Of a stretch of DNA of 64,000 nucleotides, positions 36,087 through 63,908 are shown in pieces; positions within the stretch are counted from its first letter, which is position 1, and each line of letters starts with the position of its first letter. The translations under genes were made by a program, and so were the position numbers. This DNA comes from Myxococcales bacterium. Its GTDB lineage: Bacteria > Myxococcota_A > Polyangia > Polyangiales > Polyangiaceae. The notes beneath the pieces are model-generated. The model saw only the letters and a list, made by a program, of their open reading frames with translations, was not told the DNA's origin and ran no database searches. Location: the NCBI GenBank assembly GCA_947473045.1, contig CANJCO010000023.1:1-64000 (forward strand), given 5' to 3'.

Positions 36087-37508
36087 ATGGGTTCTCTGAG
36101 TTACAGGCCGCGCACCGATGTGCTGAGCCTTGGCGACGGCTTCTTCGATGAAGTGAAGCCCGCTGACTTTCCTCGCGCTGTGCTTCGCCACCGCGACCAG
36201 GACGCCGCGCGCGAAGTCGGCCTCGACGACTTGGGCGAAGTCGCGTGGGAGGCCGCGTTTGCCAGATTTTCGCCGCTGGAGCGCAACCTCCCAAAGCCCC
36301 TCGCGCTCCGCTATCACGGCCACCAGTTCGGCTCGTACAACCCGCAGCTTGGCGACGGCCGCGGCTTTCTGTTCGCGCAGCTGCAGGACGGGCAGGGGCG
36401 GCTGCTCGATCTCGGCACAAAAGGCACCGGCACGACTCCGTGGTCGCGCGGGGGCGACGGCCGCCTGACGCTCAAGGGCGGCGTGCGCGAAGTGCTCGCG
36501 ACCTCGATGCTCGAAGCGCTCGACGTGACGACCTCGCGGTCGCTGTCGCTCTTCGAGACCGGCGAGGCCCTGTATCGCAACGACGAGCCGTCGCCGACCC
36601 GCTCTTCGGTTCTCGTGCGCCTTTCGCATTCGCATGTGCGCTTCGGCAGCTTCCAGCGCCTCGCCCACGCGCGAGACGCGGCGCGCATGCGGCGACTGGT
36701 CGACTATGTGATCGAGCGCTTTTACCCCGAGCTTCAGAGCGATCCACAGCCCGTGTTTTCGCTGCTCCGCGCGGTCGCCGAGCGGCACGCGCGCACCACC
36801 GCCGAGTGGATGGTCGCAGGCTTTGTTCATGGGGTGCTCAACACCGACAACATGAACATCACGGGCGAGAGCTTCGACTACGGCCCCTGGCGATTTTTGC
36901 CGACCTATGACGCGGAGTTTACGGCCGCGTATTTCGACCATACCGGGCTTTATGCCTATGGGAGGCAGCCCGGCACCATTCTGTGGAACCTCACACGTCT
37001 CGGGGAGGCGCTTCGCACCCTCGAGCCCTCGCTGGCTGTGGGGAAGGCGCTCGCCGAGTTCGAGACGTCGTTCGTGCGCGAGACGCGGCGTGCGCTGCTC
37101 GGCCGCCTCGGGCTTCGCTCCGCGGGAGTCGCCATCGACGACGCGCTCATCGGCGAAGTGTTTGCGTTTCTCGAGGTCACGCAGCTGCCGTTCGATCGAC
37201 TGTTTTTCGACTGGTTCGGAGGCGAAGCGAGCGCGGCGCGCGCGGCGTCCGGCGTTTGGCACGAGGCCTACGAGCGGCCTGAATTTACGGCCCTTCGTGG
37301 TCACCTTGCGCTCTTTGAGCCCACCTGCGCCGCGCTGCTCGAGGGCCCGGCTTTTTCGCGCGAGGCACCGGTCACGATGCACAAAGACGAAGTCGAGCGC
37401 GTGTGGGAGGCCATCGACGCCCGCGACGACTGGGAGCCGCTGTCGCGAAAGCTGGCCGATGTGGCCGAGCTGAAAAAGGCGCTGTCGGCGTCGCGGCAAC
37501 GCGCCTGA
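36087..37508 (+). CDS. selO: Protein adenylyltransferase SelO (YdiU family)
   Basis: SelO is a kinase-fold enzyme that AMPylates proteins involved in redox homeostasis, binding ATP in an inverted orientation. The 473-residue protein has the family hallmarks YHGHQFGSYNPQLGDGR, GTKGTGTTPWSRGGDGRLTLKGG, HGVLNTDNMNITG (metal-binding Asn/Asp) and DYGPW. The C-terminal end is short and lacks the Cys/Sec found in eukaryotic homologues. It is co-directional with the DCC protein gene. Confidence 0.95.
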   Translation: MGSLSYRPRTDVLSLGDGFFDEVKPADFPRAVLRHRDQDAAREVGLDDLGEVAWEAAFARFSPLERNLPKPLALRYHGHQFGSYNPQLGDGRGFLFAQLQDGQGRLLDLGTKGTGTTPWSRGGDGRLTLKGGVREVLATSMLEALDVTTSRSLSLFETGEALYRNDEPSPTRSSVLVRLSHSHVRFGSFQRLAHARDAARMRRLVDYVIERFYPELQSDPQPVFSLLRAVAERHARTTAEWMVAGFVHGVLNTDNMNITGESFDYGPWRFLPTYDAEFTAAYFDHTGLYAYGRQPGTILWNLTRLGEALRTLEPSLAVGKALAEFETSFVRETRRALLGRLGLRSAGVAIDDALIGEVFAFLEVTQLPFDRLFFDWFGGEASAARAASGVWHEAYERPEFTALRGHLALFEPTCAALLEGPAFSREAPVTMHKDEVERVWEAIDARDDWEPLSRKLADVAELKKALSASRQRA

Positions 37509-40433: not shown

Positions 40434-42410
40434 GTGTCCAAAATTGCCAAGCTCGCGGCCGCAGCCGTGGTCGTCGTCTGCGCGTGCCGCGCCAAGCCGC
40501 CTCCAGGGCCCACCGACGCGGCGCCCGCTCCGGTCGCCCTGAGGGCGCCAAGCGCCGCCGACGCCGACGTGGTGACCGGCGCCTCGGGGACGTACGACGC
40601 GGGCCCGGCCGTACTCGCGACCGGCTCAGTCGATGGCGCCGCGCTGCGCGAGCGGCATCGTGCGCGCCTCGCATGGGACCACTCGGCGGTGACGCTTGTG
40701 CAAGGAGGCACGGCGCTCGCTCTGGGGCGACGCCTCTGCGAAGCGAGCGTCCCTGTGCGCGCGGCCGATGTGCCGATTCTACTGAAGCCGAACATCGGCG
40801 GCTTCGAGTGGTTCAAGTCGGGCGCAGATGACGGCCTCAAGGGGCGGCTCACCGACCCCGAGTTCGTTCGCGGCGTGATTCGCTGTCTCAAAGCCCGCGG
40901 GCATACGCGCATTACGGTGGCGGACGGGTGGGGAGCCACCCACGCAGACTGGGTCCGCCTCGCGAAGGCCAGCGGCTACGAGGCGATGACGCGCGACGAG
41001 GGCGTGCAGCTGGTGGCGATGGACGACGACGGCGTGTTTGACGTGGAGGGCGACACGCCAGGCAAGCCGCTCCGGGTCACCGGTATGGAGCACACCCGGG
41101 CGCCGACGCTGCTCATCCCGAAAATTCTCGCAGAGCACCTCGATCACGGAATGTTCATATCGCTGCCAAAAATCAAGGCGCATCGATTTGGGGTGTTCTC
41201 GATGGCCATCAAGGGAACGCAGGGCACCGTCATGCTCTCCGACGCCTCGCCAGCGTTTCATCAAAAGTGGCGCATGCATCGCGAGCTTGGCGCGTGGATC
41301 GAGGCCAAAAAGAAGGGCGCAGCCGACGATCGCGCGGGCTATGTGCGCTCGCTCGAGGCGTTCGCCGAGCGCATTGTCGATGTGTTCGAGGTCAATACGC
41401 CCGACGTGGTGCTCGCAGAGGGCGCCCCGGCCATGGGCGGCGACGGATTTGCCAAACAGGTGCCGTCCGCGGAGAGCTTTGCGGTGGGAGGTACCAACGC
41501 GGTGCTTGTCGACCGGGTTGGCGCTGCCTTGCTCGGGTTGTGGGACAATCGTGACCTTGCACGGGAGCTGGGAGGTCACGCAACCTCTCCTCTGCTCGAG
41601 GTCGCCGGCCGCCGCTTCGCGATCGACCTCACGAGCCCCCTGATCGAAGGCGACGGCAAGGCGTTGCTCGACCGGCCCAGGCGCGCCGATCTCGACGCGA
41701 TGGCTGGGTTTTCCATTCACTCCGCGCCGGGCGCATCGACAGACCCTTCGCCGGTCGCGCACGCGGCGGCGCTCGCTGGCGATGCGATCGCGGTCGACGG
41801 CAAGGGCGACGACGCCGCCTGGGCCCGCGCGGCTGCCGTCACGTGGGACACCGACTTCGCCGGTCGAGACACGGCCATCGTGACGCACGCGCGCTTCGTC
41901 TGGGACAAAGATGCACTCTACATGCGAATCGACAACGAGGGAGCTGGCCTCCACGTCGACGCGCGCCGACCCATCGGCGTGGAGCGCGCGAAGCTCTACG
42001 AGGAAGACTGCGACGAGCTGTTTATCGCGCCCGATCCGAAGCAGCCGCGGCGCTATTTTGAGATCGAGCTGGGGCCGATGGGGCATTTCCTCGATGTGGC
42101 CCTGGACCGAACCGGGCCGCGCGCCCGCAGCGACGTCGCGTGGTCGAGCGACCTTCGCGTAGCGACCAGCAGCGACCCCGGCGCGGGCACGTCGACGATC
42201 GAGGCCCGCATCGCGGCGCGCGAGATCACCGCGGCGCTCAAGGTGGGCGCAGCCTTGCCGATGGGGCTCTTTCGCATGGAGGGAAAAATGCCCCGCAGCT
42301 ACCTCGCGTGGAGCCCGCCGCGAACGACTAAGCCCGATTTTCACAGGCCCGAAGCGTTCGGAATTCTGATGCTGGATGAGCCAGCCGCTTCCACGGGTGC
42401 CGAACGCTGA
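40434..42410 (+). CDS. DUF362 lipoprotein with CBM9-like domain
   Basis: This 658-residue protein has a lipoprotein signal (VVVCACRAK) and a Pro/Ala linker. A DUF362 domain follows (about 105-380; VPILLKPNIGGFE, LPKIKAHRFGVFSMAIKGTQGTV). The C-terminal domain (about 440-640) looks like a CBM9/sugar-binding sandwich, with AIAVDGKGDDAAWARA, VRFVWDKDALYMRI-like strands and YLAWSPP. DUF362 proteins are usually cytoplasmic and iron-sulfur linked, so an exported version joined to a carbohydrate-binding domain is unusual. It starts at GTG 40434, 90 bases from the divergent barrel gene. Confidence 0.8.
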   Translation: MSKIAKLAAAAVVVVCACRAKPPPGPTDAAPAPVALRAPSAADADVVTGASGTYDAGPAVLATGSVDGAALRERHRARLAWDHSAVTLVQGGTALALGRRLCEASVPVRAADVPILLKPNIGGFEWFKSGADDGLKGRLTDPEFVRGVIRCLKARGHTRITVADGWGATHADWVRLAKASGYEAMTRDEGVQLVAMDDDGVFDVEGDTPGKPLRVTGMEHTRAPTLLIPKILAEHLDHGMFISLPKIKAHRFGVFSMAIKGTQGTVMLSDASPAFHQKWRMHRELGAWIEAKKKGAADDRAGYVRSLEAFAERIVDVFEVNTPDVVLAEGAPAMGGDGFAKQVPSAESFAVGGTNAVLVDRVGAALLGLWDNRDLARELGGHATSPLLEVAGRRFAIDLTSPLIEGDGKALLDRPRRADLDAMAGFSIHSAPGASTDPSPVAHAAALAGDAIAVDGKGDDAAWARAAAVTWDTDFAGRDTAIVTHARFVWDKDALYMRIDNEGAGLHVDARRPIGVERAKLYEEDCDELFIAPDPKQPRRYFEIELGPMGHFLDVALDRTGPRARSDVAWSSDLRVATSSDPGAGTSTIEARIAAREITAALKVGAALPMGLFRMEGKMPRSYLAWSPPRTTKPDFHRPEAFGILMLDEPAASTGAER

Positions 42411-44716: not shown

Positions 44717-45388
44717 ATGGCCAATCTGATTCAATGGGGGCGTCCGTCGATGCTCAGCCTTCAGCGCGACGTCGAGGATATGCTCGGAGACTTTCCGGCG
44801 CCGCGCGGCTTTCGTCGCGAGATGTCGCGACTGTTCGACGAGTTCACGTCGCCGCGTCCCCTTTGGCGCGAGATGGACCGGCTCTTCGACGAGTTCGACT
44901 CGCCGACGACCATGCGCCAGCGGGTGGCCCGCCTGTTCGAGGATGTCGTGGGTCCGACGACGCGCGCCCTTACGCAGAGCCGCGAGACCTTCATGCCGGC
45001 GCTGGAGCTCACGGAGCATGAAAACGAGTTCGTCATGAAGGCCGACCTGCCCGGCATTCGCGAGCAGGACATCGACTTGCGCATCGACGACAGCAATTTG
45101 CTCACGGTCTCCGGTGAGCGTCGCGACGACGTCTCGAAGCGCGCGCCGGGCTACGAGTACAGCGAGCGCAGCTACGGGGCGTTCTCGCGCTCGGTGTCGC
45201 TTCCTGCGGGAACCGATACGTCCCGAATCAACGCCGACTTCAGGAATGGCGTTCTCGAGATCCATATTCCGAAGTCGCCGGAAGCGCGCACGCGAAAGAT
45301 TGCGGTCACACGCGAAGAACCTCGAATCCTGGCGCCGACCAACGGCCCGGTCATTCAGGCGCAGAAGTCTCAGGCTCGAAGCTCATAG
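44717..45388 (+). CDS. Hsp20/alpha-crystallin small heat-shock protein
   Basis: This 223-residue ATP-independent holdase has its alpha-crystallin domain at about residues 93-190 (PALELTEHENEFVMKADLPG, RINADFRNGVLEIHIPK). The N-terminal arm carries a duplicated motif, REMSRLFDEF and REMDRLFDEF, about 20 residues apart, and further RLFED. The C-terminal tail lacks a clear I-x-I motif beyond RILAPT. AGGAG lies about ten bases upstream of the ATG. A sigma-54-type promoter precedes it and a strong hairpin follows. It is the first gene of the stress cluster. Confidence 0.95.
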   Translation: MANLIQWGRPSMLSLQRDVEDMLGDFPAPRGFRREMSRLFDEFTSPRPLWREMDRLFDEFDSPTTMRQRVARLFEDVVGPTTRALTQSRETFMPALELTEHENEFVMKADLPGIREQDIDLRIDDSNLLTVSGERRDDVSKRAPGYEYSERSYGAFSRSVSLPAGTDTSRINADFRNGVLEIHIPKSPEARTRKIAVTREEPRILAPTNGPVIQAQKSQARSS

Positions 45389-45420
45389 CCTGACTTCTGG
45401 GGGGAGTGGGGGGAGCGGGT

Positions 45421-45455
45421 CGGGGAGCCGGCGAGTGATATTCGCCGGCTCCCCG
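45421..45455 (+). terminator. 14-bp perfect hairpin after hsp20
   Basis: CGGGGAGCCGGCGA at 45421-45434 pairs exactly with 45442-45455, with a 7-base loop. It has no T-tract, so it may be a terminator, an attenuator for the downstream genes, or an mRNA-stabilising end for hsp20. Confidence 0.65.
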
Positions 45456-45506
45456 GCAAACTATTGAGCGATAGCAAACGCAGCGTAACCGCCGGGGAGC
45501 CATGGC

Positions 45507-47135
45507 GTGAGTCTGAAAACCGATTTGATGCAGCCACAAGCCTGTGGGGCCGCTCCGGACGAGACCGTAGAGCTGATCGAAACCCATATTTCGTGGGTCT
45601 TTGTCGTGGGCGCTCACGTATACAAAGTAAAAAAGCCGGTCGACCTCGGATTTCTCGACTTTACGACATCAACCCTGCGCCACGCCGCGTGCGAAGCCGA
45701 GGTCCGACTCAATTCGAGGCTGGCTCCGGAGGTTTATCTGGGAGTCGTCCCGGTGACCAGGAACGACGCCGGACGATTCAGTCTTTGCAGCAGCGGCGAA
45801 ATTGATGACTGGGCTGTGCATATGCGGCGTCTGCCTGAGGGCAGACGTGCCGACAGCCTCGCGCGCCGCGGAGATCTAACGTCACAGCACATGTTGATGA
45901 TGGCGCATGAAATATCGGATTTTCATGCCCGCTGCGCGAGTGGTGTCGAGGTTCAGTATTACGGAATGCCCGACGCGGTATTGCGAAACGTGAAAGAGAA
46001 CTTCGCCCAGACGCGCGCCACGATTGAGCACTACTTGAGCGCGTCAGAAGTGACCACTCTTCAGCAGTATCAAGTCGATTTCATTCGTCGTCACGCGCCG
46101 CTGATCGAACGCCGCGCGCGCCTCGGCCGTGTGCGGGACGGTCACGGCGACCTGCGCCTCGAGCACGTGTACCTGCCTCCGCTGCGCGCGTCGCTCGGCC
46201 TGTCGCCGGCGGACGATTCGCGGGTCGAACGGCCGGTGATCATCGACTGCATCGAGTTCAACGACCGCTTTCGCTATGCCGACGTGTGCGCGGATATCGC
46301 GTTTCTGTCGATGGATTGCGCGGCGCACGGCCTGCGCGATTTCGGCGAGCAGCTCCTCGCGCGGTATGCGCGCGAGGCGAGTGACTATGACCTGTACGCT
46401 CTGGTCGATTTCTACGAAAGCTACCGGGCGCTGGTGCGCGGAAAGGTGGCAGCGATCGTGGCGGACGACGCCGGCGTCGCGGGCGAGCTGCGCGAAGCTG
46501 CCCGAAAGACTGCGCTCACCTGTTTTCGGCTCTCGCTGGCCGCCAGTTGCCCGCCGGTTATCGGACCGGAGGTCGTCGCCGTAGGAGGCGTCATCGCCTC
46601 TGGCAAAAGCACCATTGCCGAGCTCGTCGCGGGCGCCTTGTGCGCGCCCGTGATCGACTCTGACCGCACGCGCAAGGCGATGCTTGGCGCGGAGGCGCAG
46701 CAGCCAATGCGCGACGCTGCATGGCATGGCGCGTACGATCCGGAGCTGACGGCGCGCGTCTATGCCGAAGTGCTTCGCCGCGCGGCGGTCGTTGTCGCGT
46801 CGGGGCGTCCGGTCGTGCTCGACGCGTCGTTCCGGTCCGCTGAGTCGCGCGCGTCGGCACGCGAGCTCGCGCGAGCCCATGGGGCGCCTTTTCGCTTTCT
46901 GGAGTGCCGCGCTCAGTCCGACGTATGCCGCGCTCGACTGGCTACGCGCGCGCTCTCCCCGAGCGTATCGGACGGCCGACTCGACGTGTTCGACGCGTTC
47001 GCCGCGGCGTTCGAGCCCGTCACCGAGCTGCCGACGAATGAGCATGTCGTCATCACGACCGATCGGCCCCTCGAGCAGACCCGCGCGCGCATCGGCGCCC
47101 TGCTCGCGCGAGGCCGCCCCGCCCAGCATCCCTGA
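45507..47135 (+). CDS. COG2187-COG0645 fusion: APH-like plus P-loop kinase protein
   Basis: In this 542-residue protein, the first 340 residues are an aminoglycoside-phosphotransferase-like fold. They contain WVFVVGAHVYKVKKPVDLGFLD (Lys), HGDLRLEHV (His213 onward) and the metal-binding IDCIEFNDRFRYADVCADIAFLSMD-type region. The last 180 residues are a small P-loop kinase with Walker A GVIASGKS at 361-368. The same fusion occurs in mycobacterial Rv2004c, a DosR-regulon member of unknown function. It starts at GTG 45507 after GGGGAG. AT-rich codons around 45610-45640 differ from the neighbours. Together with hsp20 it suggests a dormancy or hypoxia role. Confidence 0.85.
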   Translation: MSLKTDLMQPQACGAAPDETVELIETHISWVFVVGAHVYKVKKPVDLGFLDFTTSTLRHAACEAEVRLNSRLAPEVYLGVVPVTRNDAGRFSLCSSGEIDDWAVHMRRLPEGRRADSLARRGDLTSQHMLMMAHEISDFHARCASGVEVQYYGMPDAVLRNVKENFAQTRATIEHYLSASEVTTLQQYQVDFIRRHAPLIERRARLGRVRDGHGDLRLEHVYLPPLRASLGLSPADDSRVERPVIIDCIEFNDRFRYADVCADIAFLSMDCAAHGLRDFGEQLLARYAREASDYDLYALVDFYESYRALVRGKVAAIVADDAGVAGELREAARKTALTCFRLSLAASCPPVIGPEVVAVGGVIASGKSTIAELVAGALCAPVIDSDRTRKAMLGAEAQQPMRDAAWHGAYDPELTARVYAEVLRRAAVVVASGRPVVLDASFRSAESRASARELARAHGAPFRFLECRAQSDVCRARLATRALSPSVSDGRLDVFDAFAAAFEPVTELPTNEHVVITTDRPLEQTRARIGALLARGRPAQHP

Positions 47136-47150
47136 CTGGCTACGAGCCAG
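47136..47150 (+). terminator. Short hairpin after the kinase-fusion gene
   Basis: CTGGCT and AGCCAG arms (6 bp) with a three-base loop lie directly after the stop codon, with no T-tract. It is weak evidence for termination. Confidence 0.3.
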
Positions 47151-47200
47151 GCCGCCCGCCGATTGAGCGTTCGATCCCGCATTCACACCGAGGTAATCCC

Positions 47201-47509
47201 GTGTCCAAATTACGTCCCTCCAATCCGAGTCGAGCGCTCCTGCGCCTTGTTCGGGTAGACTCCGCTTCGCCGCCGCTCGATGCCTCGCGCATCTGGGCTC
47301 AAGTCGATGTCGTGCTCGCGCTCATCGGCGAGCTTGAAGGCGTGTGCGACGCGTCCGATGAAGGGCGCCTCGACCGACAATCGCTCGTCGAGGAGCTGAC
47401 GCGGCTGGGATGCCGGGTTCTCGAAACGGCGGCCGCGGTCGCGCGCCCGGATGCCCTGGCGACGGCGCGCAGGGCCGCTGCTTCAATGAGCGACTCTGGC
47501 GCGCGCTAG
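47201..47509 (+). CDS. Small protein of unknown function
   Basis: This 102-residue, mostly helical, slightly acidic protein has no signal, motif or family that I recognise. The GTG start is preceded by AGG at a reasonable distance. It ends five bases before the SAM synthetase gene and so is probably in the same transcript. Confidence 0.6.
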   Translation: MSKLRPSNPSRALLRLVRVDSASPPLDASRIWAQVDVVLALIGELEGVCDASDEGRLDRQSLVEELTRLGCRVLETAAAVARPDALATARRAAASMSDSGAR

Positions 47510-47514
47510 CTGGG

Positions 47515-48711
47515 ATGGAACTCATCGTAAGCCCGCTTGCCATGCGCCACGACGACCCGGTCGCCGAGGTCGTTGAACACAAAGGCATCGGTCATCCCGA
47601 CACCATTTGTGACGCGCTCGCTGAGGCGTTTGGCGTGGCGCTCGGGCAATACTACGTTGAGCACTTCGGCCGACCCCTTCACTTCAATGTCGACAAGGCT
47701 CTTCTGGTGGCCGGGGCGTCTTCGCCGGCCTATGGCGGGGGCCGGGTTATCGAGCCTATGCAAATGATTTTGGGAGGGCGCGCGACAAGGCGCGTACGCG
47801 GCGAAATGGTTCCGGTCGAAGCGATCGCGGTAAAGACGTCGAAGGCCTGGATGCGCTCGCATCTGCATGCAGTCGATCCGGAGAGCCACGTGAACTGGCA
47901 ATGCCTCGTTCGCGCGGGCTCCGACGAGCTCGTCGACCTCTTCGCGTCCGGGCAGACCCACGGCGCGCAGTGGCTCGCGAACGACACGTCGGTGGGCGCC
48001 GGATATGCTCCGCATTCTCCGCTCGAACGCGCCGTTTTGGCGGCGGCCGCGAGACTGCGCTCGCTTGCGCGCGAGTGCCCGGAAGTCGGCGAGGACACCA
48101 AAGTGATGGGGCTAAGGCTGCACGGCCGATTCAGCCTGACGGTCGCGTGCGCGTTCATCGGCGGGAGCCTGACCGGCCTCGATCACTACGAGGCCCGGCG
48201 CGAGCACGTTCGCAGGGAGGTCGCCCTCGCGGCGACCGACGCGATTGGCCGCGACGTCGTGGTTGAACTCAACACGGCCGACGACCGCGCAGCGGGCAGG
48301 GCGTACGTGACCGTGACCGGCACGTCAGCCGAGGCGGGTGATGACGGACAGGTCGGTCGTGGAAATCGCGTAAGCGGCCTGATTACGCCGTGCCGGCCCA
48401 TGTCGATGGAAGCGGCCGCCGGCAAAAACCCGATGTCCCACGTGGGCAAGCTCTACAACGTGGCGGCCCATCGAATCGCTGCTTCCGTGGTGGCTCACGT
48501 GCCCGTCGTGCGCGAGGCGCACTGCTTCATGCTCAGTCGCATCGGTCGCCGCGTCGATGAGCCTGTGCTGGTCGACGTCCGCATTCGCACGCGCGATGAA
48601 AATCCCCCCGCGGAAGTCACAGGCGCCGTGCGCGCCGTGGCCTTGCAGCAAGTCGCGGCGCTGGGCGCCCTCGCCCGCCGACTCGCCGCCGGCGCCATTC
48701 ACGTTTACTGA
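47515..48711 (+). CDS. Archaeal-type S-adenosylmethionine synthetase
   Basis: This enzyme makes SAM from methionine and ATP. The 398-residue protein matches the archaeal AdoMet synthetase family rather than bacterial MetK: EVVEHKGIGHPDTICDALAE, FNVDKALLVAG, ANDTSVGAGYAP, VGEDTKVMGLR, VTGTSAEAGDDGQVGRGNR, and RPMSMEAAAGKNPMSHVGKLYN. This class is rare in bacteria and suggests acquisition by transfer; whether a standard metK exists elsewhere cannot be seen here. Its neighbours are a SAM-dependent protein-repair methyltransferase and a methionine-synthesis-type enzyme, consistent with a dedicated SAM supply. Confidence 0.93.
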   Translation: MELIVSPLAMRHDDPVAEVVEHKGIGHPDTICDALAEAFGVALGQYYVEHFGRPLHFNVDKALLVAGASSPAYGGGRVIEPMQMILGGRATRRVRGEMVPVEAIAVKTSKAWMRSHLHAVDPESHVNWQCLVRAGSDELVDLFASGQTHGAQWLANDTSVGAGYAPHSPLERAVLAAAARLRSLARECPEVGEDTKVMGLRLHGRFSLTVACAFIGGSLTGLDHYEARREHVRREVALAATDAIGRDVVVELNTADDRAAGRAYVTVTGTSAEAGDDGQVGRGNRVSGLITPCRPMSMEAAAGKNPMSHVGKLYNVAAHRIAASVVAHVPVVREAHCFMLSRIGRRVDEPVLVDVRIRTRDENPPAEVTGAVRAVALQQVAALGALARRLAAGAIHVY

Positions 48712-48730
48712 AATGGCCCGCGCCTCGTGA

Positions 48731-49318
48731 TCATGGATCACTGGCCCTTTCATAAGTGCCAATCAGCGTTGCCTGCGCAAGAACATGCCCGCTCATCGCC
48801 CGCTCAAGCGCCGCTTTGTCGGGCTGCGCCAGGTCGGGGAGCACGATATCGAGCGCATAGAGCTTATGAAAGTAACGATGGCGCCCGTCGGGCGGACAAG
48901 GTCCGCGATATCCCACCATTTTCCAGCTGTTTGTGCCCTGTCGCGTGCCCGCGGGGAGGCGGTCGGGCGCGGCGCCCTCGGGGAGCGCGGCGACGACTGA
49001 GGCAATGTCGTAGGCCAGCCAGTGGACCCAGGCTGCTGCCGGCGCTCGCGGGCCCGGCGCGTCGGGATCGTCGACGATGAGCGCGAAACTCTGCGTGCCC
49101 GCGGGAGCGTCGGACCACGACAGCGGCGGGGAGCTCCCCGCGCCCTCGCACGTATGTCGCGCAGGAATCGGGGCTCCGTGGGCAAAGCTGGGCGAGGTCA
49201 GTCGAAGCGGCATCGTCGCGCCCAGCAAATGGTCGCGGCACGCGTGAGACATGATCGCAGTGCCGATCAGCAACGCAGACGCAGCCGCTGCGTGCGCCCG
49301 GCGGAGTGACGAGCCCAT
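48731..49318 (-). CDS. PEBP family protein (YbhB/YbcL-like), probably exported
   Basis: This 195-residue phosphatidylethanolamine-binding protein homologue has the ligand-site motifs DDPDAPGPR, HWLAYDI and GPCPPDGRHRYFHKLYALD. The N-terminal 35 residues form a hydrophobic signal-like segment (SALLIGTAIMSHAC), so it may be periplasmic or a lipoprotein. The family includes small-molecule and kinase-inhibitor binding proteins, but the bacterial role is unclear. ATG at 49318 is chosen for the signal peptide; ATG at 49393 is an alternative. It is divergent from the isoaspartate methyltransferase gene. Confidence 0.85.
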   Translation of the reverse strand: MGSSLRRAHAAAASALLIGTAIMSHACRDHLLGATMPLRLTSPSFAHGAPIPARHTCEGAGSSPPLSWSDAPAGTQSFALIVDDPDAPGPRAPAAAWVHWLAYDIASVVAALPEGAAPDRLPAGTRQGTNSWKMVGYRGPCPPDGRHRYFHKLYALDIVLPDLAQPDKAALERAMSGHVLAQATLIGTYERASDP

Positions 49319-49356
49319 ACTTCCCGTTCGCAAAAACCGTACTCGGAGAGGCCGCT

Positions 49357-49372
49357 CGGCGCGGCGCTTGCT
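49357..49372 (+). promoter_or_regulatory. Weak sigma-54-like element before pcm
   Basis: CGGCGCG, four bases, TTGCT gives ten of twelve consensus positions, but GC-rich matches are common here, and the site lies only 13 bases before the ATG at 49385. Low weight. Confidence 0.25.
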
Positions 49373-49384
49373 CGCGCCTTGGGT

Positions 49385-50044
49385 ATGAACCACTCGAACG
49401 ACACCGACGAGGATGACAAATCAGCAAGATACCGGGCGAACCTGGTTGAGGGACTACGCGGGGCGATTCGCGACGCGCGCGTACTGGGGGCCATGCAGAC
49501 GGTGCCACGCCACCGGTTTGTTGATGGCGTTTCGGCGCGGCGCGCCTATCGGGACGATACGGCTCCGATCGGCTTCGGACAGACGATCTCCCAACCGACG
49601 GTTGTCGCGTTGATGACGGCGGCGCTTGAGCTAACCGGGTGCGAGCGGGTGCTCGAAATCGGAACGGGGTCGGGCTACCAGGCCGCGATCCTGTCGCTGC
49701 TCGCAGCGCGCGTGTATTCCATCGAGCGCTTCCCCGAGCTGGCCGACAAGGCGCGGCGCCGACTCGCCCGCCTGGGCTACGACAACGTCGAAGTTCGCGC
49801 TGGCGACGGCTTCGGCGGATGGCCGGAGGCCGCTCCGTTCGACCGCATCATCCTGACCGCTGCGCCAGCGGAGGTGCCGGCCGCGCTCTTAGGACAGCTC
49901 GCTGAGGGGGGCGTCCTGGTCGCACCTGTTGGGCCGGAGGGAGGCGCGCAAACGCTGCTTCAATTACGAAAAACCGGCGCCAATATTAGCCAGCGCGAGC
50001 TCGGCTCGGTGTGGTTCGTTCCGATGGTGCCCGCCGCACAGTAA
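49385..50044 (+). CDS. pcm: Protein-L-isoaspartate O-methyltransferase
   Basis: Pcm uses SAM to methylate isoaspartyl residues, starting repair of aged proteins. The 219-residue sequence has the family motifs PRHRFV, AYRDDTAPIGFGQTISQP, VLEIGTGSGYQAAIL (SAM-binding motif I), and VRAGDGFGGWP. Length is standard. ATG at 49385 is preferred to the in-frame TTG at 49379. It sits between the PEBP and MetE-like genes and fits with the nearby SAM synthetase and chaperone genes as a repair module. Confidence 0.93.
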   Translation: MNHSNDTDEDDKSARYRANLVEGLRGAIRDARVLGAMQTVPRHRFVDGVSARRAYRDDTAPIGFGQTISQPTVVALMTAALELTGCERVLEIGTGSGYQAAILSLLAARVYSIERFPELADKARRRLARLGYDNVEVRAGDGFGGWPEAAPFDRIILTAAPAEVPAALLGQLAEGGVLVAPVGPEGGAQTLLQLRKTGANISQRELGSVWFVPMVPAAQ

Positions 50045-50061
50045 CCGCATGAAGTCGACGG

Positions 50062-50077
50062 CGGCGCGGGCTTTGCT
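50062..50077 (+). promoter_or_regulatory. Weak sigma-54-like element before the MetE-like gene
   Basis: CGGCGCG, four bases, TTGCT matches ten of twelve positions with the correct spacing, 42 bases before the ATG at 50119 and inside the gap after pcm. Moderate to low weight because the base composition is GC-rich. Confidence 0.3.
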
Positions 50078-50118
50078 CTGGGAGAAGATCACACACACGC
50101 TGCTCGGAGGTATCACCC

Positions 50119-51285
50119 ATGGCGAACGACAGGATCTTGACGACGCATACTGGCAGCCTTCCCCGGCCCGAGGCCGTCGTGCGCATGCTCTCCGAGCGCG
50201 ACGAGGGTAGCGAGCAGGACGTCGCTGCGAATGAGGCGCTCCTCGTGCGGGCCGTAGGCGAGTGCGTCGACCGCCAAATCGCGGCGGGCATCGATATTGT
50301 GAGCGACGGCGAGCTGGGCAAGCCGAGCTACGCGACCTACGTCAAAGACCGCCTGACGGGCTTCTCGGGAGAGAGCGACTTCCCGCGGCCGGCCGACCTG
50401 GCGCGCTATCCTGATTATGCGCGTGTTGTGCTCGGTCATTCGGCCATCACTTCGCTAAAAACGCCGGCCTGCAACGGCCCCATCGCGTATCGCGACCGGT
50501 ACGCTATTACGCAGGAGCTGTCGCGATTTCGCGATGCGCTTCGAGGCCGCGCGCGCGGCTTCGTCACCGCGGCGTCGCCGGGCGTGATTGCGCTGTACTT
50601 GAAGAACCGGCACTACCGAAGTCATGAGTCGTATCTGGACATTCTGTCGCACGCGATGAAGGCCGAATACCGGGCCGTTCATGACGCGGGCTTCGTTCTG
50701 CAGCTCGACTGCCCCGACCTGGCGATGTCGGGTCACATGCAGTATGCAGGCTTGTCGCTGAAAGAGTTTCGCAAGACGCTCGCGCAGGGAGTCGAGGCGC
50801 TCAATCACGCGGTCGCCGACATTCCGCCTGAGCGCATGCGAATTCATGTGTGCTGGGGTAATTACTCCGGACCGCACGACCGCGACGTTGAGCTCAAAGA
50901 TATTGTCGATATTTTGTTGTCTGCTCGTCCAAGAGGCATTTCGTTTGCCGCTGCCAATCCGCGGCACGCGCACGAATGGGCTGTGTGGCAGCAGATTCAT
51001 ATTCCCGAAGACAAGGTGCTGATCCCCGGCGTCATCGATTCAACGACCAACTTCGTCGAGCATCCGGCGTTGATTTCGGAGCGTATCTTGCGGTTCGTAA
51101 ACATCGTGGGCGCCGACCGCGTCATCGCCGGAACCGACTGCGGCTTCTCGACGTTCGCCGGAATGAACGTCGTTCACCCTTCGATCGCGTGGGCGAAGCT
51201 CGAGGCGCTCGCACAAGGCGCTGAGGTCGCGCGGCGCGCGCTGCGCACGGCGCCCCGCCCTCAAATCGTCGTCGCGCACAGCTAA
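50119..51285 (+). CDS. Core MetE-like methyltransferase (COG0620)
   Basis: This 388-residue protein corresponds to the C-terminal catalytic barrel of cobalamin-independent methionine synthase, without the N-terminal half. Zinc-ligand positions are visible: His and Cys in HVCWGNY, Glu near AHEW, and Cys in GTDCGF. The N terminus TTHTGSLPRP is common to the short family. Short MetE proteins may transfer methyl groups from donors other than the usual folate. It is preceded by GGAGG eight bases before the ATG. Its link with a SAM synthetase and Pcm suggests methyl-group metabolism. Confidence 0.9.
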   Translation: MANDRILTTHTGSLPRPEAVVRMLSERDEGSEQDVAANEALLVRAVGECVDRQIAAGIDIVSDGELGKPSYATYVKDRLTGFSGESDFPRPADLARYPDYARVVLGHSAITSLKTPACNGPIAYRDRYAITQELSRFRDALRGRARGFVTAASPGVIALYLKNRHYRSHESYLDILSHAMKAEYRAVHDAGFVLQLDCPDLAMSGHMQYAGLSLKEFRKTLAQGVEALNHAVADIPPERMRIHVCWGNYSGPHDRDVELKDIVDILLSARPRGISFAAANPRHAHEWAVWQQIHIPEDKVLIPGVIDSTTNFVEHPALISERILRFVNIVGADRVIAGTDCGFSTFAGMNVVHPSIAWAKLEALAQGAEVARRALRTAPRPQIVVAHS

Positions 51286-51312
51286 CAGCGGGCCGCTCCC
51301 GCTCCGCGCGGC

Positions 51313-51846
51313 TCAAGCCGAGGGCAACGGAGCGTGGGCGGCGGGCGCTGCGTTTTTCGGGGCGGGTTCGGCGTGCTCCAGCACACGCGTGACGAACTTG
51401 GCCGTCGTGACCGCGCGCGCGCCGCCCCAGACGTCGGACTCGCGCAGGGCGAGAGCGGCGACGGGCTCCTTCGCGCAGGCGCGCTTCATCTGTGCGAGGG
51501 CGCGCTCGGCGCCCCGACCGCCATACGTGCAGAAGAGCGCGACGGCTTTCATGTCTGCGCGGTGATTGCGAATGAACGAGCGCACAGGGCTCGACATGGA
51601 TCCGTTCCAGACAGGGGTGCCGATGACCACGACGTCGTAGGCGCTTACGTCGTGGCCAGTTGGATTCAAATCGATAATCGACTTGAGTGTCGCCTCGACT
51701 GCGGAGCGGGCATATCCGATGATTCCCCGGCGGCGAACGCGCTCGGTGATTTCTTCGCGATCGGCATCGAGCGCGCTGACGAGGTCGAGCGCGACCCGAT
51801 GGGTCGTCCCGGAGCGTGAGAAATATGCAACTAGAATGCGCGCCAT
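51313..51846 (-). CDS. Flavodoxin-like protein
   Basis: This 177-residue FMN-binding electron carrier or quinone reductase-like protein has the phosphate-binding loop YFSRSGTTHRVA and the flavin loop GTPVWNGSMSSPVRSF. It lacks the long loop of classical flavodoxins and resembles the NAD(P)H-flavodoxin/WrbA-like group. GGAGG lies seven bases from the ATG, and a sigma-54-type promoter lies immediately upstream. It may supply electrons in the stress cluster. Confidence 0.9.
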   Translation of the reverse strand: MARILVAYFSRSGTTHRVALDLVSALDADREEITERVRRRGIIGYARSAVEATLKSIIDLNPTGHDVSAYDVVVIGTPVWNGSMSSPVRSFIRNHRADMKAVALFCTYGGRGAERALAQMKRACAKEPVAALALRESDVWGGARAVTTAKFVTRVLEHAEPAPKNAAPAAHAPLPSA

Positions 51847-57590: not shown

Positions 57591-57733
57591 GGTCCGCCAG
57601 ACCTATCGCCCTTGGGCTGCCCGCTGCAAGGTCGCGGCGAACGCATTGCCGGTTTTCGTGCGCGCGCTGCACCTTCCGGCGTAACAGCGGCGTTCCCCTC
57701 GCGAAAGAAGCGCCGGTGCGCCCGGACGGCGCG

Positions 57734-57749
57734 TGGCATGTCCGCTGCA
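57734..57749 (+). promoter_or_regulatory. Sigma-54-type promoter of the CBS-protein gene
   Basis: TGGCATG, four bases, CTGCA: eleven of twelve consensus positions with exact GG-N10-GC spacing, the best match among the cluster genes. It lies 54 bases upstream of the ATG at 57803, matching the geometry before hsp20. The downstream NtrC-type activator is the natural candidate regulator. The rest of 57591-57802 shows no other named element. Confidence 0.75.
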
Positions 57750-57802
57750 CTGACCGTTGCGGGCGCCAAATCGGCGCTCCAAACAACAGGGAGACGGTTG
57801 TC

Positions 57803-58231
57803 ATGTGTATGCTCCGAGACGTCATTGAAACGGGTCCATCGGTGCGGACGGTCCGTCCTGACGCCACCGTGAGCGAGGTGGTGCGGGAGATGTGCAAGTG
57901 GAACGTACGCGCGGTGCTCGTAGGTGACGCTGTCGACCCGCTCGGCATCATTTGTGAACGTGACGTGCTCGAGCGGGTTGTAATACCCCACCTCGATCCG
58001 CAGACCACAAGTGTGGCAAGCGTGATGACCACACCCGTGGTCTGGCTGCCTGCCACGAGCAGCGCCGAAGACGCCCTCTCCTACATGCACGCCAACGGCG
58101 TTCACCAGGTTCCGGTATCGGGCGAGGAGTCGTTTATCGGCTTGGTCTCCTGCTCTGATCTCGAGACGTGGGCGCTTCGGTCAAAAGATTCCGAAATTAC
58201 TGCCCTGATGTCTTACGTCATGGGGCACTAA
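57803..58231 (+). CDS. CBS-pair domain protein
   Basis: This 142-residue protein is made of two CBS repeats (VRTVRPDATVSEVVREM, ASVMTTPVVWLPATSSAEDA) and nothing else. Such proteins sense adenine nucleotides or similar ligands and often act in stress or dormancy, as mycobacterial Hrp1 does. AGGGAG lies about nine bases before the ATG. A sigma-54-type promoter lies upstream and a hairpin downstream. Next comes the NtrC-type activator gene. Confidence 0.92.
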   Translation: MCMLRDVIETGPSVRTVRPDATVSEVVREMCKWNVRAVLVGDAVDPLGIICERDVLERVVIPHLDPQTTSVASVMTTPVVWLPATSSAEDALSYMHANGVHQVPVSGEESFIGLVSCSDLETWALRSKDSEITALMSYVMGH

Positions 58232-58393: not shown

Positions 58394-59830
<1,437 letters not shown>

Positions 59831-61643: not shown

Positions 61644-63908
61644 ATGTCCACCGAGCCCGCATCTGATTTCATTCGCGACATGATCTCCGCCGACGTCGCC
61701 GCCGGTAAACACGGCGGCCGCGTGCGCACGCGCTTCCCGCCGGAGCCCAATGGCTATCTCCACATTGGTCACGCCAAGTCGATCTGCCTGAACTTCGGCG
61801 CGGCGCGCGAGCTGGGCGGCGTCTGCCACCTTCGTATGGACGACACCAACCCCACCACCGAAGACCCCGAGTACGTCGCGGCGATTCAGCGCGACGTGCG
61901 CTGGCTCGGCTTCGAGTGGGGCGACAACATGTTCTACGCCTCTGACTACTACGCGCGGCTCTACGACCTCGCCGAGCACCTCATCACCCTCGGTCGCGCC
62001 TACGTGTGCGATCTAAGCGAAACCGAGATGGGCGAGCATCGGGGCACGCTCTCTTCGCCCGGCAAAAACAGCCCGTTTCGCGATCGCAGCGTGGGCGAAA
62101 ACCTCACGCTGCTGCGCCGCATGCGCGCGGGCGATTTCAAAGAGGGGCATTGCACCCTGCGCGCGAAGATCGACATGAGCTCGCCGAACATGAAGCTGCG
62201 CGACCCGCCGCTTTATCGCATCAAGCACGCACGCCACTACCGCACCGGCGACGCGTGGTGCATCTATCCGCTCTACGATTACGCCCACTGCCTGAGTGAC
62301 TCGTTCGAGGGGATCACGCACTCGCTGTGCACGATGGAATTCGAGAGCGCGCGCGAGCTGTACGACTGGGTCATCGCCGCGACCGAAGTGCCGCACGTGC
62401 CGCGTCAGACCGAGTTCGCGCGCCTGAACCTCACCTACACCGTGATGAGCAAGCGCAAGCTGCTTCAGCTCGTTGTGGGAGGTCACGTGCAGGGTTGGGA
62501 TGATCCGCGCATGCCCACGCTCGCCGGCCTTCGCAGGCGGGGCGTGACTCCCGAGGCCATCCGCGACTTTTGCGCGCGCATCGGCGTCGCCAAGAATCTG
62601 TCGACCATCGACATGGCGCTGCTCGAGCACTCGATTCGCGAAGATTTGAGCCCGCGGACTCCGCGCGTCATGGCCGTGCTTCGGCCGCTCAAAGTGACGA
62701 TCACCAACTGGCCCGAGGGGCAGGTCGAGTGGCTCGACGCCCCGTACTGGCCTCACGACATCCCAAAGACCGGCTCGCGCGTCCTGCCGTTTTCGCGTGA
62801 GATCTACATCGATCAGGACGACTTCCTGGAGGCCCCGCCGAAGGACTTTTACCGGCTCGCGCCCGGTCGCAAGGTGCGCCTGCGTCACGGCTACGTCATC
62901 ACATGCACCGGGGTTGTTCACGATGACGCCGGCGAGGTCGTCGCGCTCGAGTGCACCTGCGATCCGGCGACGCGCGGAGGCGCCGCGCCCGAAGGGGAGC
63001 GCATCGCAGGCACCATTCAGTGGGTCAGCGTCGCGCACGCGCTCGGCGTCGAAGTGCGCTTGTACGACAGGCTCTGCTCGGTGGAGAGCCCTGGCGAAGA
63101 CGGGCGCGATTTCATGCTCGATTTGAACCCGCGATCGCTCACCGTGGTGGCCGCGAAGGTGGAGCCCAGTCTCGCGGCGGCCGTCGCAGGCGAGCGCTAC
63201 CAGTTCGAGCGCGTCGGCTTTTTCTACGTCGATGACGACAGCACGCCGGGCGCCCCCGTGTTCAATCGAACTGTCGCGCTGAAAGACGGTTGGACCCGGA
63301 TCGCTGCCAAGCCCGAGCTTGCCCCGAAGGCCGTCAAAGCGCCGCAGTCAGCGAGAGCCGCGGGCGATGAAGCGCCGCTTTCAGACGCCGCCCGCGGGCT
63401 GTGCGACGCGCACGCCCTCACTGCCGACCTTGCGCGCGCGCTGGCGGGCGAGGCTTCGCTGCTGGCGCTGTTCGAGGAGGCGATCGCTGCGGGCGCGCAG
63501 CCCAGGGCCGCCGCGAGCCTGCTCGCCAACGATGTGCTTGGCGACCTTCGCACCCGCAAGCTCGAGGTCGCGCCGTTCGGCGGAAAAGAGGTCGCCGAGC
63601 TGCTCGCGCTCGCCGCCGACGGAACGCTCTCCACGAAGCTCACGAAAGACGTCCTCGCGGCCATGTTCGCAGGGGAGGGCACGCCGCGAGGGATTGTGGC
63701 TGCGCGCGGTCTTCGGCAGATCACCGATTCGGGAGCAGTCGACGCCGCCGTCGACGCGGTGCTCGCCGCGAACGCCGACGCGGTCGCCCGCTACAAAGCC
63801 GGAAACGTGAACGTGCTCGGTGCGCTCGTGGGCATGGTCATGAAGGCGAGCGGCGGTCGCGCCAACCCCGGGCTCGTCTCCGCCGCGCTCAAGCAGAGGC
63901 TCGCGTAG
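61644..63908 (+). CDS. glnS: Glutaminyl-tRNA synthetase with C-terminal YqeY-type domain
   Basis: GlnRS charges tRNA-Gln with glutamine. The 754-residue protein has the class I motifs [13 protein letters not shown] and [11 protein letters not shown], the catalytic core (1-330) and the beta-barrel anticodon-binding part (about 340-555). About 195 extra residues follow, rich in Ala and Leu helices ([33 protein letters not shown]). They resemble the YqeY/GatB tail domain that Deinococcus GlnRS carries to improve tRNA binding. A short hairpin covers the start region. Confidence 0.95.

Follow-up and report, generated by a model that had tools for sequence, protein, structure and literature searches.

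An archaeal-type SAM synthetase gene and a gene for the repair enzyme Pcm (protein-L-isoaspartate O-methyltransferase) lie side by side in other bacteria as well as near each other in the stretch of DNA analyzed here, and the two enzymes are fused in two bacterial genomes, which suggests that protein repair has a SAM source of its own in some bacteria. SAM is normally viewed as a shared cofactor that a single housekeeping enzyme supplies. Where a synthetase is physically linked to a repair methyltransferase, protein repair would have a cofactor supply of its own; if this is true, it would provide a function for the archaeal-type synthetases that occur sporadically in bacteria already possessing MetK. 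The fusion makes the idea directly testable with one recombinant protein. The analyzed DNA, referred to as the window, is a 64,000-nucleotide stretch of a Myxococcales genome (contig CANJCO010000023.1, positions 1 to 64,000) from an assembly of 5.15 Mb in 138 contigs with 99.98% completeness.

Gene content of the window

Genes were called from open reading frame (ORF) length and codon usage, and the calls agreed with Pfam. Between 44717 and 51846, the genes run in the order Hsp20, APH-like/P-loop kinase, SAM synthetase, PEBP, Pcm, MetE-like, and flavodoxin (Table 1). A preliminary description of this region had named the Hsp20, kinase/P-loop, SAM synthetase, Pcm, and MetE-like genes, and the presence of all five was borne out by the gene calls and Pfam; however, the PEBP gene had been left out and the flavodoxin gene had gone unnamed. 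The synthetase ORF opens at 47410, although the methionine used as the start in Table 1 better suits the usual family length of about 400 aa. The Pcm gene starts 668 bp downstream of the synthetase gene, with the PEBP gene on the opposite strand in between. A CBS-pair protein is encoded at 57716-58231, 7.7 kb beyond Pcm with unrelated genes intervening, and an NtrC-type regulator at 58394.

Table 1. Predicted genes between positions 44717 and 51846 of the window.
Feature	Position	Strand	Evidence
Hsp20 / alpha-crystallin small heat-shock protein, 223 aa	44717..45388	+	PF00011 E=7.2e-21
APH-like/P-loop kinase (Rv2004c-type architecture), 542 aa	45507..47135	+	PF13671 AAA_33 E=6.6e-26, residues 356-504
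Possible small ORF, 102 aa, in the kinase-synthetase interval	47201..47509	+	ORF list; no Pfam match
Archaeal-type methionine adenosyltransferase (SAM synthetase)	47515..48711	+	PF01941 E=8.7e-138
PEBP / YbhB-family (Raf kinase inhibitor-like) protein	48731..49393	-	PF01161 E=8.5e-44; TIGR00481 over cut-off
Pcm, protein-L-isoaspartate O-methyltransferase	49379..50044	+	PF01135 E=9.6e-59; NF001453 and TIGR00080 over cut-offs
MetE-like (cobalamin-independent methionine synthase II family) protein	50119..51285	+	PF01717 E=6.9e-9
Flavodoxin-family protein	51313..51846	-	PF12682 E=4.6e-13

The APH-like N-terminal half of the kinase had no Pfam match at 1e-3. Homologues of this protein, with approximately 30-36% identity, were either annotated as "bifunctional aminoglycoside phosphotransferase/ATP-binding protein" or unannotated, and were located on plasmids of both proteobacteria and actinobacteria.

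The archaeal-type SAM synthetase

The window synthetase matched PF01941 over its full length with 459.9 bits (cut-off 27) and NCBIfam NF003366 with 459.6 bits (cut-off 435). Of the 77 positions with a conservation of at least 95% across 123 relatives, it retains 75. Judged by its sequence, the protein is a member of the archaeal family with the conserved active-site and structural positions intact, and we infer that it is enzymatically active. It belongs to the same full-length family as archaeal MAT, such as that of Thermococcus kodakarensis (PMC3853416), and keeps the conserved motifs; unlike that enzyme, it is an extra SAM synthetase, in a bacterium that also encodes canonical MetK on another contig (C4). 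Canonical MetK was likewise present in 37 of 40 other bacterial genomes carrying the archaeal-type synthetase. Three genomes (G413, G414, and G419) had the archaeal-type synthetase and no canonical MetK match; these may be incomplete or may rely on the archaeal-type enzyme alone.

The frequencies of PF01941 are those of genome samples: 15/377 genomes in the phylum sample, 12/317 in the class sample, 14/369 in the gammaproteobacterial class sample, and 22/297 in the Desulfobacterota sample. A congener of the source genome (G001, about 89% complete) had neither an archaeal-type synthetase nor any Pcm at E<=1e-25. In a tree of the synthetases that included 27 sequences from archaea, these formed a single group and the bacterial sequences were diverse. 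One gammaproteobacterial genome had two copies of the archaeal-type synthetase gene at a distance of 48 kb (G673:C1, near 1416880 and 1465530; L127 and L129).

Pcm and its adjacency to the synthetase

The window Pcm is the sole Pcm match in its genome at E<=1e-25. It scored above the curated cut-offs of TIGR00080 and NF001453 (216.6 bits, cut-off 159, and 250.9 bits, cut-off 188, respectively) and is, like E. coli Pcm (PDB 3lbf; TIGR00080), a full-length member of the family. It differs from E. coli Pcm in lying outside a SurE-Pcm context, near an archaeal-type synthetase and Hsp20. The protein stayed below the cut-offs of TIGR04364 and TIGR04188, the profiles of RiPP-associated PIMT sub-families, and no RiPP synthetase family was found among the scanned window neighbors; both results speak against a RiPP-associated PIMT.

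For adjacency, a blastp match of 35% identity or more over 110 residues had to lie no further than 3 kb from the synthetase and share its strand; this strict count was used because a loose Pcm profile search pulled in other methyltransferases. Fusions are left out of this count by construction. The near-identical loci L005 and L097 were counted once, as were L072 and L244, which share a contig, and a Pcm remnant at L029 was left out of the linkage count. By these rules, Pcm accompanied the archaeal-type synthetase at six loci (L005, L031, L036, L037, L248, and L251) plus the window. No Pcm was found near canonical MetK (0/38 loci, mostly from the same genomes) or near archaeal synthetases (0/54 archaeal loci). 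The chance expectation, calculated from Pcm copy number and genome size, was 0.27 adjacencies in 45 genomes, compared to the 6 seen without the window (P=4e-7). A stricter count of 4 gave P=1.8e-4; it leaves out L248 and L251, since their order was searched after L031 had shown linkage. These statistics give an order of magnitude because the sample is limited and partly similarity-driven. Linkage, whether by adjacency or fusion, required 6 changes on the synthetase tree with the window left out. The adjacency of synthetase and Pcm thus recurs on independent branches, above expectation.

The tightest arrangement was that of L031, from a gammaproteobacterium, in which Hsp20, a 103-bp gap, the synthetase, a 16-bp gap, and Pcm follow one another on a single strand. 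The spacing between synthetase and Pcm was 16-19 bp in L031 and L005. Roughly 85-90% of the sampled bacterial archaeal-type synthetases had no adjacent Pcm, and the copies in Desulfobacterota were mostly near RuvB, QueH, and DksA-type genes; the family is therefore not solely a partner of Pcm. A Rosetta-type inference from the RuvB and QueH neighbors in Desulfobacterota was set aside, as that context is a different one. At L029 (9175-9510), a 3'-terminal Pcm remnant, which looks like a decayed Pcm, was observed where relatives carry an intact Pcm upstream of the synthetase.

Synthetase-Pcm fusion proteins

In two loci, the synthetase and Pcm were encoded by one ORF: a 637-aa protein in a genome of the gammaproteobacterial sample (L135:7978-9891, G510) and a 640-aa protein in a genome of the Desulfobacterota sample (L219:8625-10547, G955). 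In both, PF01941 lies within approximately the first 400 residues and PF01135 within the last 190 or so. Identity between the two proteins is 53% over the full length, and it is also 53% between either Pcm half and the window Pcm. An assembly artefact is unlikely because the same junction is present in two assemblies from different phyla. Within the synthetase set, the fusion was confined to these two loci, with no C-terminal extension of more than 60 residues in any other synthetase, and the window synthetase and Pcm are separate genes. None of the plasmid records covered both fusion halves, and a scan of viral contigs found no synthetase-Pcm fusion. We found no paper on bacterial archaeal-type SAM synthetases with Pcm, or on the fusion, in a search limited to open-access literature.

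Stress and protein-homeostasis setting

Genes for RtcB-archease, a LonB-like protease, the hibernation factor HPF, and PEBP were also found near bacterial archaeal-type synthetases. Any of seven stress-type families lay within 3 kb of 16/55 Myxococcota and gammaproteobacterial synthetase loci versus 0/38 MetK loci, an enrichment that is descriptive because some of the families were picked after the clusters had been seen. Pcm relatives that are not beside a synthetase were also found near Hsp20, LonB-like, HPF, or archease genes, and none of these four was near the sampled SurE-type Pcm loci.

Particular arrangements were observed in some groups. RtcB RNA ligase and archease genes adjoin the synthetase at four gammaproteobacterial loci (L027, L029, L033, and L036), once also with Pcm. 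At three loci (L100, L102, and L105) from one genus (g14) of the window's own family, the synthetase gene and a gene for a LonB-like protease overlap or are contiguous. A family of small hydrophobic proteins of about 120-170 aa is encoded just upstream of the synthetase at nine gammaproteobacterial loci (L037, at 886-1245, and L018, L019, L020, L022, L023, L024, L029, and L040); the members from L037 and L029 had no Pfam match, and that from L037 also had no NCBIfam match.

Plasmid copies of the synthetase (Bosea, Phenylobacterium, Methylocystis, Cupriavidus, and Burkholderia) were located among genes for metal transport or metal ATPases, PPK2, PpsA, and universal stress proteins, without Pcm. 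Among the genes of the Phenylobacterium plasmid are nine coding for Hsp20, two copies of rpoH, and FixLJ (PMC2529317). The window set also resembles tLST (PMC8290217), in that a small heat-shock protein is clustered with protein-quality genes and a mobile gene pool is involved. However, the tLST core is dna-hsp20-clpG, and the tLST review (PMC8290217) contains no terms for SAM synthetase or Pcm. A scan of the window ORFs between 28.5 and 64 kb found Hsp20 and no Clp family gene, which speaks against a tLST with its dna-hsp20-clpG core.

Methionine supply and comparison with the DosR regulon

Alignment, together with structure-based alignments, indicated that the MetE-like protein keeps the zinc ligands His243, Cys245, and Cys341 and has Ala277 in place of a Glu that is present in five aligned homologues. 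With a zinc ligand lost, the protein probably does not make methionine. Some of its homologues adjoin one-carbon or putative catabolic genes. MetH is present in the genome; a six-frame genome search with PF01717 recovered no MetE, although hmmscan of the MetE-like ORF does match this profile. Since canonical MetK and MetH are both present, the cluster is not the sole source of SAM or methionine. The ligand loss, the presence of MetH, and the lack of recurrence together reduce the methyl-supply chain to the synthetase and Pcm.

The preliminary description had proposed a DosR-like gene set. Hsp20, the Rv2004c-like protein, and the CBS-pair protein have counterparts in the mycobacterial DosR regulon (HspX, Rv2004c, and Hrp1), three protein families shared by architecture. 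In contrast to the DosR regulon, the window set has no DosR box, different regulators are nearby, and there is no recurrent co-occurrence. The core palindrome of the DosR box had 2 one-mismatch matches in the 64 kb compared to 4.4 expected, none of them near the gene set, and the regulators near the set in the window are an NtrC-type response regulator and a hybrid-type kinase. A search for sigma-54 motifs gave nothing above chance, a sigma-70 scan of 44.5-52 kb gave no promoter-like site, and no promoter or regulator motif shared by the synthetase and Pcm was found in the window. The full gene set occurred at 0/74 other bacterial loci, close to the case that the preliminary description had itself named as refuting its proposal, adjacency only here. 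The kinase/P-loop, MetE-like, and flavodoxin genes were near a synthetase only in the window, and the CBS protein was at most loosely so elsewhere; these four genes are probably neighbors and not parts of a module.

Interpretation of the gene set

We lean slightly toward a functional core in which an accessory archaeal-type synthetase feeds Pcm, that is, a protein-repair cluster of the stress type that has its own supply of SAM. In stressed cells, the additional synthetase would form SAM from ATP and methionine, alongside the housekeeping MetK. With that SAM, Pcm would methylate the isoaspartate of damaged proteins, leading to reversion to aspartate, while Hsp20 would hold unfolded clients. 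The window synthetase may hand SAM to Pcm in particular, and the genes may respond to stress; co-regulation is only putative, since the window genes are separate and PEBP is on the other strand. Counted in favor of a dedicated supply are the conserved synthetase, the presence of canonical MetK besides it, the recurrent adjacency to Pcm, the row of genes at L031, the fusions, the similar neighborhoods of Pcm relatives away from a synthetase, and the metal and stress settings on plasmids. Counted against it are the majority of synthetases without Pcm, the interruption by PEBP, the lack of a shared motif, and the unfused window copy. The broader reading is more tentative, and we place it a little short of an even chance: some bacteria would keep a second, archaeal-type SAM synthetase that supplies the repair of isoaspartate, possibly along with further repair methylations, during stress, with the genes adjacent or fused, and the window would be a looser, unfused instance with Hsp20. 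The claim in the preliminary description of a local SAM supply for protein repair therefore gains support, as the pair recurs and is fused elsewhere; a methionine supply from the MetE-like protein does not, given MetH elsewhere in the genome and the lost zinc ligand.

The main rival, which we consider rather unlikely, is that the synthetase is a generally useful accessory enzyme traveling in shuffled pools of stress and metal-resistance genes, with Pcm, Hsp20, PEBP, LonB, HPF, and RtcB-archease as fellow members and no specific hand-off of SAM. The stress-type families near synthetases, partly post hoc as they are, would be expected on this account, as would the plasmid copies lacking Pcm and the Pcm genes in similar neighborhoods without a synthetase, but the two fusions and the 16-19 bp spacings at L031 and L005 are more specific than a shared island. 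An accidental gathering of an ordinary Hsp20, an ordinary Pcm, and a sporadic, horizontally acquired synthetase appears improbable: the set is unique to this genome, its genes are on both strands, and the congener has neither synthetase nor Pcm, yet adjacency is found on independent branches more often than expected, and there are fusions. Least probable of all is a dormancy module of the DosR type that has a methionine and SAM cycle of its own, for which the overlap with DosR regulon families speaks, whereas the box matches at chance level, the NtrC-type and hybrid regulators, the lack of recurrence, the canonical MetK and MetH, and the lost zinc ligand all speak against it.

Other features of the window

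Three further genes were observed outside the set. A SelO protein adenylyltransferase gene is located at 36087-37508, approximately 8 kb upstream of the Hsp20 gene. One 658-aa ORF at 40434-42410 combines a DUF362 domain with a CBM9-like carbohydrate-binding domain, and a class I Glu/Gln-type tRNA synthetase with a GatB/YqeY domain at its C-terminus is encoded at 61644-63908.
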